NCBI GenBank assembly: GCA_016290515.1
Contig: JAEEUJ010000003.1
Coordinates: 1 to 33,445 of the forward strand
DNA length: 33,445 nucleotides
From: Clostridiaceae bacterium
GTDB taxonomy: Bacteria; Bacillota; Clostridia; Oscillospirales; Acutalibacteraceae
Reading direction: 5' to 3'
The notes below the pieces were generated by a model. It was not told where the DNA came from. It was given only the letters and a program-made list of their open reading frames with translations, and made no database searches. The position numbers and the translations under genes were made by a program. Below, piece by piece: positions 21,587-30,878 of the stretch (the first letter of the stretch is position 1; every line of letters starts with the position of its first letter).

Positions 21587-22204
21587 ATGCCCGGTACAAG
21601 AAAACTCGGCAGACCTACCGATCACCGCAGAGCTATGCTCAGAGGCTTGGTAACATACTTGCTTGAAAACGGCAAGGTTGAAACTACTGTTACAAGGGCT
21701 AAAGAGGTTCGCGCAATGGCTGAGAAAATGATCACCATTGCTAAAGATAATACTTTGCACGCAAGAAGACAGGTACTTGCTTACGTTACCATCGAGGACG
21801 TAGTCAAGAAGCTGTTCGACGAAATTGCTCCCAAGTATCAGGATGTTAACGGCGGTTACACCCGCATTATAAAGACAGGCACACGCCGCGGCGACGCAGC
21901 AGAGATGGCTATCATCGAGCTCGTTGAGCCCAAGGCGGAGGAAAAGAAGCCTGCCAAGAAGACTCCCGCTAAGGCGGCAGCCAAGAAGACAACCTCGACC
22001 AAGAAGGCTGCTCCCAAGGCAGAGGAAAAGGTTGAGGAAGTTAAGGAAGAGGCCGAGGCAGCCGTTGAGGCAGTCGAGGAAGCTCCCGCAGCAGTCGAAG
22101 AGGCAGCAGAGGCTGTTGAAGAGACCGCTGAAGCAGCAGTTGAGGAAGCAGCAGAAGTTGTTGAAGAAGCAGCTGAAGCAGCAACCGAGGAGACCGCTGA
22201 ATAA
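21587..22204 (+). CDS. rplQ: 50S ribosomal protein L17 with ~90-residue low-complexity C-terminal extension
   Basis: Core [50 protein letters not shown]...[18 protein letters not shown], followed by a Lys/Ala/Pro stretch and then Ala/Glu/Val repeats. Confidence 0.96.
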
Positions 22205-22220
22205 TTCAATCATTAAAAAC

Positions 22221-22247
22221 CCCCGTTCTTTTGAACGGGGACTTTTT
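22221..22247 (+). terminator. Intrinsic terminator ending the r-protein super-operon
   Basis: CCCCGTTC-TTTT-GAACGGGG followed by ACTTTTTT. Confidence 0.9.
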
Positions 22248-22287
22248 TAGGCGAAGGACGGTTTCTGTTAATTTAAGCCGCCCTTCC

Positions 22288-22316
22288 TTGACAATAAATA
22301 CGGCGGATATTATAAT
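22288..22316 (+). promoter_or_regulatory. Consensus SigA promoter for the transglutaminase/LRR protein gene
   Basis: TTGACA (22288-22293), 17-bp spacer, TATAAT (22311-22316). Confidence 0.85.
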
Positions 22317-22356
22317 CAAATTATGACAATTTGTTTTGGCGGAGGACGGCAAAAAA

Positions 22357-24591
22357 ATGAAAAAAACAATCGCAAAGCTTTTATGTACATTACTGGTTTT
22401 AGCCCTTTTGATTCCAATTGCGGCTTTGCCTGTTTCTGCCTCGGATGACGGGCTCTTTTTCGTATATTGCGGTGAAAAGAGTTTGTTGCGCTTCCCTGTT
22501 GACGACGCATATTTTCCCGAGAAAGACGGCAGTCATTATACTGTAAACCGATTCTATTCCAATCCGAATTCGGACGTTACGTTCTTTTCTCAGCTTTCGA
22601 GCGCTCAGAAGAGAATCTATAACGCTCTGCTGAATTCGAGGATGGGACTTGACGCGCCCGAATTCGAGCAGGACGGCACCGTATTGGGCAGACGTATAGA
22701 TATTCCGTTTTCCGACTTTAAGCTGGCATCCACCAGCTATGAGACCTTGATGAGCATCATCGACAGGAACGTTGTTTTTGCAATTTCCTCACTTATGGAG
22801 GACTACCCCGAATTCTTCTGGGTAGGCGGCTATGGCTACGGTATGGCGCTGGGATACAGAAACGGTCAGTACTACCTTGATACGCTGGTACTGATATTAA
22901 TGGCTAATCCCTATGCGTATGAAAACTGGGACAGCATTGAAGACGACTATAATTACCTTAACACTAAAATCGATGAGTTTGAAATTGAGGGTAATACGCG
23001 TTACGAAAAGCTTCTCTCGATTCACGACAGTATATGTGAGCAGGCTGATTATGACTTCACGTTTGTTCTTCCTCACGCTTATGATCCGTTAGGCATATTT
23101 GTCGATCCGAACGATTTTGTTTGCGAAGGATATTCGGAAATATTCAAGCTTCTTTGCGACCGTGAGGGGATTCCCTGTGTTTGCGTTGTCGGAGAAGGCG
23201 GCTATGGGGACAACACGGGCGCACACAAATGGAACTATGTCCAGATGGAGGACGGTCAATGGTACGGTGTTGACGTAACCTGGGACGATCAGGATGAAAT
23301 ATTACACGATTATTTCCTTGTCGGCAGCGAATCAAGAAGCGAAGCCTATTTCGGACATCATATGTTTTCCGAGGAGCATGTAGCTTCGGGCGCTCTGTTT
23401 ATGGGGGTCAGATACCGATTAAGTTACCCGACACTGAGCAAAACGGGTTACTACTGTCAGGACGGAAGACCCGTGAGTTCGGACGGACTCTGGCGTTATC
23501 AGATGCTTGACGACGGCACAGTTTCAATATGCTCCGGTGTTTGCGACACGAAGGCATATCTTGGCAGCGCACAGGATGTTACCGTTCCGACGGAAATAGA
23601 CGGATATACCGTCAGCGAGCTTGGAACCTCGGCTTTTGCTCACTGTGAAAATGTGCGAAGCGTAACTGTTCCGGATTCGATTAAGTCAATCGGCAGATTT
23701 TCTTTTGAGGGCAGCAGTGTCGAGCGGGTTGTTCTTCCGCAGGGTATAAAAAGCATACCGTTCGGCGCATTTTCGGACTGTTCTCTTAAGGAAATAACTG
23801 TACCCGACAGTGTTGAAACGATTGAAAGGCAAGCATTTGAGAAATGCGATTTGCTGAAAACGGTTATTCTCCCGGATGCCGTTACCGATATTCCTGATTT
23901 CGCCTTTTCGGGATGCAGCTCACTGACGAGTATTCGTTTGGGAGAGTCAACGTCCTCAATCGGACAGTCCGCTTTTGAGGGTTGTAAAAAGCTTCAATCT
24001 GTTGACATTAGCGGTGTATCTTCAATCGGACCGAACGCTTTTGCCGGATGCGCGGCACTTGAGAGCATCGCCTTATCAGCCGCTTTAACAACAATTGAAA
24101 CGAAGGCATTCTGCGAGTGCAGCAGCCTGCGCGACGTAACATTGCCTGACTCGCTTGAATCAATCGGCGATGCTGCGTTTTACAAATGCGTTGCACTCGA
24201 GAAAATTTATATTCCGGCGGGTGTTGCCGAAATTCCGAAATCCGCTTTTCTGAAGTCGGGACTCAAAGAGATATACGGCTATCACGGCACGGGCGCCGAA
24301 ACGTATTCGAGTGCATACGGTATTAGTTTTATACCGCTTGACGATTACGACTGTGAGGCGGGCATACACTGTTACAAATCTCACCGCAGCCCCGACGAAA
24401 CCGTCTATGAATGCCTGCTCTGTTCAGACAGCTATACCGAGCCTTTGCCTGAACTCAGTGTTGACGGCAGTGTAACGGTAAACGCCGATATCGACTGCAA
24501 AGACGAGAATCAGATTTACTATATTTGCTTTGAGCCCGACAATGACGGCTTGTATGAGTTTTCATTTGATGGAACGGATGGTAGTTTTTAG
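22357..24591 (+). CDS. Secreted transglutaminase-like / BspA-type leucine-rich-repeat protein, ending at an in-frame TAG
   Basis: Signal peptide MKKTIAKLLCTLLVLALLIPIAALPVSA; Cys/His/Asp pattern VCEGYSE, AHKWNYV, VDVTWDD; LRR_5-type repeats (TVPDSIKSIGRFSFEGSSVERVVLPQGIKSIPFGAFSDC...). Start at 22357 after GGAGGA; the ORF track uses an upstream TTG. Confidence 0.85.
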   Translation: MKKTIAKLLCTLLVLALLIPIAALPVSASDDGLFFVYCGEKSLLRFPVDDAYFPEKDGSHYTVNRFYSNPNSDVTFFSQLSSAQKRIYNALLNSRMGLDAPEFEQDGTVLGRRIDIPFSDFKLASTSYETLMSIIDRNVVFAISSLMEDYPEFFWVGGYGYGMALGYRNGQYYLDTLVLILMANPYAYENWDSIEDDYNYLNTKIDEFEIEGNTRYEKLLSIHDSICEQADYDFTFVLPHAYDPLGIFVDPNDFVCEGYSEIFKLLCDREGIPCVCVVGEGGYGDNTGAHKWNYVQMEDGQWYGVDVTWDDQDEILHDYFLVGSESRSEAYFGHHMFSEEHVASGALFMGVRYRLSYPTLSKTGYYCQDGRPVSSDGLWRYQMLDDGTVSICSGVCDTKAYLGSAQDVTVPTEIDGYTVSELGTSAFAHCENVRSVTVPDSIKSIGRFSFEGSSVERVVLPQGIKSIPFGAFSDCSLKEITVPDSVETIERQAFEKCDLLKTVILPDAVTDIPDFAFSGCSSLTSIRLGESTSSIGQSAFEGCKKLQSVDISGVSSIGPNAFAGCAALESIALSAALTTIETKAFCECSSLRDVTLPDSLESIGDAAFYKCVALEKIYIPAGVAEIPKSAFLKSGLKEIYGYHGTGAETYSSAYGISFIPLDDYDCEAGIHCYKSHRSPDETVYECLLCSDSYTEPLPELSVDGSVTVNADIDCKDENQIYYICFEPDNDGLYEFSFDGTDGSF

Positions 24592-25302
24592 GTGGTAAGC
24601 GGCAAAGAGACCGTCAGCCCGTCGCAGGATAACCGATACAGACTTGAAAAGGGCGCTGACTGCCTTATTATCGTCAGCCTTAACGATGCTGACGGCGGCA
24701 GCTTTACCGTGACGGCTAAGTATAAGGAAGAACCGAAGGAGTATTCCTTCCCCGACGTTCAGAAAGATGCATGGTACTATGAAGCTGTTCAGTACAACGC
24801 TTCCCACGGCTATATTACAGGTTTCAAAGACGGAACCTTCGGACCCGATAAACAGCTTACGCGTCAGGACTTCGTTGTAATTCTTGCAAGGATTGCGGGC
24901 GCTGACCTTTCGTCTTATGAGAACGCTCAGAGTAAAATGCCCGACGTAATCAAGGGCTCATACTACGCGGCAGCTGTTAACTGGGCAGTAGCAAACAATA
25001 TTATAAAGGGCTACAACAACGGAAAATTCGGTGTAGGCGACCCTATAACGAGAGAGCAGGTTTGCGTAATACTTTACAGATATATGAATTCACCCGCAGT
25101 AACTGGCGCTGACAAAACGCTCAAGCCTTTCGCGGACGCGGGCAAGATAAGCTCCTTCGCAAAGGACGCAGTTGTATGGGCAATTCAGAACGGCGTTATC
25201 TCCGGCAAGAAGGCCGATACGCTTGCACCCACAGTTACGGCTTCGCGTGCGGAAATCGCAACTATAGTTATGCGTATGGATAAAGCAGGTATGTTTGAAT
25301 AA
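24592..25302 (+). pseudogene. C-terminal part of the preceding protein (rest of a beta domain plus three SLH anchor domains), same frame, separated by TAG
   Basis: Three SLH repeats: FPDVQKDAWYYEAVQYNASHGYITGFKDGTFGPDKQLTRQDFVVILAR, MPDVIKGSYYAAAVNWAVANNIIKGYNNGKFGVGDPITREQVCVILYRY, FADAGKISSFAKDAVVWAIQNGVISGKKADTLAPTVTASRAEIATIVMR. No convincing SD or ATG of its own. Confidence 0.65.
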
Positions 25303-25321
25303 TCTATATTATAATAATAAA

Positions 25322-25346
25322 AGCGTGGAGTCCTCCACGCTTTTTG
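25322..25346 (+). terminator. Intrinsic terminator after the SLH region
   Basis: AGCGTGGAG-TC-CTCCACGCT followed by TTTT. Confidence 0.88.
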
Positions 25347-29330: not shown

Positions 29331-30878
29331 CTACTGTGCCGTTACGGGATCGGGTGAACCGCCGTCGTCCCCGTCGGAAACTGTTTCGAGATAATCTTCA
29401 ACACGCTGCTTTCTGCGTTCAGCGAGTTCATAGTACATTGTTTCTCTCGTCTTCTTATTGATGGGCCACATGAACTTGGGAATAATTCCGAGTGCGCTCG
29501 TGACAAGCGGAACAACCGTACAAAGCGCGAACAGCCAGAACTTTGTTCTGTCGTCCTGCGTACCGATTTTAAGTCCCTGAACGTAACCGATTTTCTTCAT
29601 AATCAGCGTACGCACTGTGCCCATGGCAACGCCCTGAAGTTTAAGCACAAGCCCTCGCGCGACGCCCGTGGTCGCCTCCATACGGTAGCCGTGCTTCCAT
29701 TCGCAGTAGTCCATCGCCTCGTTCCAGAGGTCGGTGTTGATAACCTTGTTTACACCGAACAAAAGCTTCGAGAAGAATTCGCGGAAGCCGTATGCGACCA
29801 GCATAGGTTTAAGCTTCAGATAATTCTTATTATGCATACCGAACAGGAAGAATCCGAGCAATACCATATCGCCGTACATATCGGAACCCGCCCAGATTGC
29901 ACGTGACGAAAAACGCTTGCGGACGGGAGCTACGAAGGCGTAGCTGATGCTGCCTACGGGGCCTGAAATACCGCTGACAAGCGCGAGAATCGTGTTGATC
30001 ATCGACTTGCCGCCGTGAACGTCAATCCAGTAGTTGCGCTCATCCGAGCCGACGCCGAAGCCGCCGAGGAAGTCGGAAAGGCACATAAGCAATACGGGGT
30101 AGTTGGTAAAGATGGCTCTGAGACCTTCCTTTACGCTCGGGCGCTCAATCGACTGCGGAACACGTTCCCTTGAAATAAGGAAGAACCACAGCGTAAATGC
30201 GCATGAGATAAGCGCTGTTGAGGTACCCATACCTGCAAAAATGCTTCTCAGCGGAACGTTGAGCTTGCCCGTGGTAACCATATCGTACAAAAAGCACATT
30301 ATGTATCCGGGCATATCCTCGCCCATCCAGCCTGTCAGCAGCTCGGCGAGGGTGATAAGCCTGATACGTTCATTCGGGTTGGGCGTGATTGTTGACATAT
30401 ATCCGCTTTTAGCGACGCTCGTAAACGTACCTGCCGTCTCGGTTATTACGTTGAAGGCAAAGTAGAATATCAGCTTCGGAACGAAGGTTGCGCCCGTGTT
30501 CGGGAAGAAATACGGTATAAACCAGAAAAGCAGACCGATAAGGGTAAGCGGAATCTGGAAGCCGACAAGGTAGGGTCTGAACTTACCGAGCCTTGTACGT
30601 GTGTTGTCGACCAGCGTCGCTATAACCGTATCGTTGATAACGTCCCATGCGCCGGTGAAGAGGTTTACGATGGCTGAAATGCCGAAGTCGATTTTAACTA
30701 CGTCCCAGATGAAACGTTCTCTGAAGTTGTTGATGTGGAACGAGTTGGAGAAATCGTTGAACAGATAGGCAAGTGTTTCCTTGGAGCCAACATAGTTAAA
30801 GCTGCGGTAAACGTTTGCCTGCGCCCTGAGTTCTCTTGAGTTGTTGGCATGTACCTGCCCGCCTAATTTAGGGCTCAT
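29331..30878 (-). CDS. MFS/GPH (glycoside-pentoside-hexuronide)-like transporter
   Basis: Multi-TM protein with AWDVINDTVIATLVDNTRTRLGKFRPYLVG typical of GPH/MFS_2 symporters; ends in TAG. Confidence 0.75.
   Translation of the reverse strand: MSPKLGGQVHANNSRELRAQANVYRSFNYVGSKETLAYLFNDFSNSFHINNFRERFIWDVVKIDFGISAIVNLFTGAWDVINDTVIATLVDNTRTRLGKFRPYLVGFQIPLTLIGLLFWFIPYFFPNTGATFVPKLIFYFAFNVITETAGTFTSVAKSGYMSTITPNPNERIRLITLAELLTGWMGEDMPGYIMCFLYDMVTTGKLNVPLRSIFAGMGTSTALISCAFTLWFFLISRERVPQSIERPSVKEGLRAIFTNYPVLLMCLSDFLGGFGVGSDERNYWIDVHGGKSMINTILALVSGISGPVGSISYAFVAPVRKRFSSRAIWAGSDMYGDMVLLGFFLFGMHNKNYLKLKPMLVAYGFREFFSKLLFGVNKVINTDLWNEAMDYCEWKHGYRMEATTGVARGLVLKLQGVAMGTVRTLIMKKIGYVQGLKIGTQDDRTKFWLFALCTVVPLVTSALGIIPKFMWPINKKTRETMYYELAERRKQRVEDYLETVSDGDDGGSPDPVTAQ

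Follow-up and report, generated by a model that had tools for sequence, protein, structure and literature searches.

Across its length, one gene for a putative surface protein in the draft genome of a Clostridiaceae bacterium of gut or rumen type is interrupted by a single in-frame TAG, and the question is whether this stop chooses between a released and a wall-anchored protein or is simply a lesion. The gene lies in a window of 33,445 nucleotides, the whole stretch of DNA that was analysed. An earlier sequence-only reading had offered a readthrough switch or a fresh pseudogene, with a nonsense mutation or sequencing error as the simplest alternative. The pseudogene or sequencing-error half of that proposal proved the better supported; all that speaks positively for the readthrough half is an open, constrained tail. 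The parts of the gene are as follows.

22357..24591, plus strand: upstream ORF of 744 amino acids, with an ATG start and a TAG end (frame reading, Pfam)
24454..24732, plus strand: beta domain cut by the stop (alignment to G000:C115 repeats, AlphaFold, Foldseek)
24589..24591, plus strand: in-frame TAG, the sole lesion of the reading frame, with AGTTTT before it and G after it (sequence)
24592..25302, plus strand: downstream open frame of 236 amino acids, comprising the beta-domain remainder and three SLH domains, with a TAA end
25323..25345, plus strand: terminator after the SLH part, GCGTGGAG..CTCCACGC followed by a T run

One frame runs from the ATG at 22357 to the TAA at 25300-25302, and the TAG is its only interruption, which confirms that the split occurs within one frame and without an indel. 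Pfam bore out the proposed division into an enzyme-like and LRR part before the stop (Transglut_core, 5.9e-7; LRR_5, 1.9e-76) and an SLH anchor after it (three SLH domains, 7.2e-33); the SLH repeats were intact and undecayed, and a terminator was found downstream, both as described. The upstream ORF encodes, in order, a signal peptide, a transglutaminase-like core (amino acids 212-306, with Cys, His and Asp visible in VCEGYSE, AHKWNYV and DVTWDD), BspA-type LRR_5 repeats and the first half of the beta domain. No signal peptide is present in the downstream frame. This frame had been said to have no clear SD sequence or ATG; the GGATGG about 10 nt upstream is poor, but a GTG directly follows the TAG (24592), so reinitiation is formally possible. 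We rejected the idea that two genes function here with reinitiation at this GTG: the second product would have no signal peptide and would begin in the middle of a domain.

The beta domain is related to the repeats of G000:C115 in the same genome. The alignment to these repeats crosses the stop (29-31% identity), and strands are predicted on either side, in agreement with the earlier placement of the stop inside one domain. When the read-through domain was modelled with AlphaFold, at modest confidence (mean pLDDT 66), the stop residue (54) fell within strand 51-57. The fold resembles, weakly, a pre-peptidase C-terminal/collagen-binding-like sandwich: the beta part gave no Pfam match above the cut-off and only weak beta-sandwich matches in Foldseek (best E 0.0097), and no orthologue of the region was found among the genomes of the genus examined. 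The stop leaves half a domain and cuts a predicted strand, which we count in favour of a nonsense mutation. It may instead be that the truncation is useful, with an anchored enzyme now permanently secreted because of the stop, and with the SLH tail left behind as a fresh relic. The short form does retain a signal peptide and intact enzyme and LRR parts, and in many related transglutaminase proteins of the genus the open frame is about 490-560 amino acids long and matches the N-terminal part only. However, the short form ends in half a beta domain and carries no sign of having been selected, and we consider this the least probable of the readings weighed here.

We asked how TAG is used in the genome. 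Among 114 long open stretches in about 219 kb of its own sequence (overlapping loci, each end counted once), 7 end in TAG, and of these only the focal gene is followed in frame by at least 100 open codons. Because it is the sole such TAG end, and because its downstream part finds matches in 30 other SLH segments of the genome, the split exceeds what chance would give. TAG also terminates other genes in the window (at 1352 and, on the minus strand, at 29331), as the sequence-only reading had noted for at least two. RF1 is encoded in the genome, above the model cut-off, none of the 37 tRNA genes found has a CTA anticodon, and PylS was not found (31 bits against a cut-off of 178). The suggested search for pylT/pylS or an amber suppressor tRNA was therefore negative, although a missing suppressor is not wholly excluded because the genome is 88% complete. 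The features of UAG reassignment, namely loss of RF1 and many genes with in-frame TAG codons, were not seen, and neither was the pairing of pylT or a CTA tRNA with PylS that marks pyrrolysine decoding or amber suppression. Wholesale TAG reassignment, judged unlikely before, is ruled out by RF1, the stop usage, the tRNA set and the lack of PylS.

Readthrough could also occur without a dedicated suppressor. RF1 would then stop most ribosomes, giving a soluble form, while in a few a near-cognate tRNA would decode UAG, yielding the SLH-anchored form. The stop does have the catalytic/LRR part on one side and the anchor on the other, in a continuous frame, with a long homologous in-frame extension after it, and the SLH tail is constrained; it is, however, placed inside a domain and not in a linker. 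In an E. coli reporter study, G after the stop raised readthrough and T upstream lowered it (PMC11126739). The focal stop has the favourable G, which counts against a nonsense mutation, and a T-rich 5' side, which acts in the opposite direction. At 37 °C, TAG reporters in that study gave on average about 0.03% of the wild-type signal (PMC11126739). Downstream of the focal stop, the RNA folds no better than shuffled sequences (z -0.95), so the 3' stimulatory structure that is frequent, if not obligatory, at such sites was not found; nor was a suppressor tRNA or PylS. A published criterion for true readthrough genes is that the in-frame stop is conserved in other species (PMC1914089). By this measure the focal stop gains no support: neither 39 genomes of the genus nor a scan of genome contigs gave a homologue with a comparable in-frame TAG, and the homologues, none of them a strict orthologue, were unbroken. 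The genome-contig scan reached relatives at no more than 50% identity, and a viral-contig scan found none. Taken with the absence of any such stop from about 115 related SLH segments, these results went against the proposed functional switch and leave programmed readthrough possible but unsupported. We regard leaky or programmed readthrough as improbable, and slightly more improbable still that UAG readthrough sets the ratio of released to SLH-anchored transglutaminase/LRR protein. If true, it would be a rare bacterial use of termination efficiency to choose between release and anchoring of an enzyme.

The closest paralogue of the same order in the genome, C114 (about 790 amino acids), is an unbroken transglutaminase-LRR-SLH protein, as is its counterpart C43 (844 amino acids) in the closest relative, G023; the latter is apparently the same record as locus L049 and is also listed as JAUMVO010000020.1. 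The focal SLH tail is nearest to that of C178 (86% identity), which is likewise unbroken, and none of the roughly 115 related SLH segments of the genus has an internal stop. Intact homologues without the lesion, as expected for a nonsense pseudogene, do exist, and the unbroken paralogues suggest that the ancestral form was most likely a single anchored protein. Two apparent recurrences of a split SLH tail were rejected: G023:C47 is intact and encodes a signal peptide of its own, and G029:C10 contains a double frameshift. Other short SLH frames are situated at contig edges. SLH tails near the focal one abound in just four genomes of the genus, each with 15-46 matches; the other 35 have few or none. 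Locus L049 (4001-8162) carries an adjacent pair of transglutaminase-like genes, one with a dockerin-like end (by eye) and the other of the LRR-SLH type.

An analysis of dN/dS on 24592-25302 had been suggested as a check, and it did reveal constraint. Between the focal and C178 tails, dN is 0.10 and dS about 1.1. In a two-ratio codon model of 12 tails, omega was 0.07 on the focal branch against 0.16 on the others; raising the focal value to 0.2 costs 4.9 units of 2 delta lnL relative to the maximum, in a profile that re-optimised the length of the focal branch alone. Three of 79 conserved SLH positions are changed in the focal tail (median, two). A young lesion would leave no trace of relaxed selection in this value. 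The undecayed tail fits a young stop, an error or a functional stop and cannot separate the three. An intact, strongly constrained tail would also follow from continued translation, which weighs against a nonsense mutation; if there was such a mutation, the lack of decay means that it must be young.

The gene is located between rplQ and a prepilin-peptidase gene, where comparison with relatives identified two further features.

22209..25340, no strand: stretch absent from the closest relative, G023 (locus comparison)
22221..22248, plus strand: rplQ terminator, CCCCGTTC..GAACGGGG followed by a T run, resembling those of G028 and G034 and differing from that of G023

The flanks in G023 are 96.5-98.8% identical, yet the focal gene is absent there and the prepilin-peptidase gene comes immediately after rplQ; G034 has the same order. 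Because it is missing from a nearly identical neighbourhood, the focal gene is accessory. The CCCCGTTC terminator resembles those of G028 and G034, while G023 has a different one, so the gene may equally well have been lost in G023 or gained here. The gap between rplQ and the prepilin-peptidase gene (2041-2111 in locus L103) thus differs between two close species both in the presence of a surface-protein gene and in the rplQ terminator. Ribosomal protein L17, encoded at 21587-22204, has a long Ala/Glu-rich C-terminal extension that is also found in several relatives; its total length across the genus is about 113 to 211 amino acids.

The main rival to a nonsense mutation, ranking second, is a consensus or strain-mixture error, in which case 24589-24591 would be a sense codon in the organism, or in most of its population, and a single anchored protein would be made. 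The TAG is known from a single draft genome that is fragmented (213 contigs, 88% complete, 3.9% contamination), and it is the single lesion of a whole frame with an undecayed tail. Lone substitution errors that create a stop are, however, uncommon in consensus assemblies, and no further stops were seen inside the SLH or LRR matches listed for the genome. We consider such an error a serious but lesser possibility.

A recent nonsense mutation is, in our judgment, probably the explanation, with a truncated product that is secreted but un-anchored. The ancestral locus, judging from the unbroken paralogues, would have encoded, in a single gene, a transglutaminase/LRR surface protein that was secreted and anchored by SLH domains; a single recent substitution may then have changed a sense codon to TAG in the beta domain adjoining the anchor. 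RF1 would terminate there and the SLH part would not be made. The secreted product would keep intact enzyme and LRR parts and half of the beta domain but lack the wall anchor, and would probably be lost to the medium or degraded. This loss may be tolerated given that the gene is accessory and that about 30 SLH segments exist in the genome. We infer a genuine base, efficient termination and the lack of any selected role for the truncated product.

An in-frame UAG inside a bacterial gene for a surface structure is also described for the CS3 pilus gene cluster of E. coli (Jalajakumari et al. 1989, cited in PMC1914089 and PMC6681793). There, the title of an experimental paper claims bypass of the in-frame amber codon, whereas the focal locus is known from its sequence and has no suppressor. 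C114 and its G023 counterpart share the domain order of the focal gene and a related SLH tail (68-70% identity), but they have one open frame with no stop and no beta domain between LRR and SLH, and are only 45-54% identical to it in the transglutaminase part. Closest in fate is the LRR-SLH gene of G029:C10 (locus L164, 102000-105500, minus strand), a protein of the same class that is broken in another member of the genus. It spans three frames, implying two frameshifts where the focal gene has one nonsense codon, and is apparently a pseudogene, suggesting that members of this large set of surface proteins get lost in the genus. The focal locus illustrates such turnover of accessory SLH surface-protein genes, with a gene that one species has, that its nearest relative is without and that is broken here.
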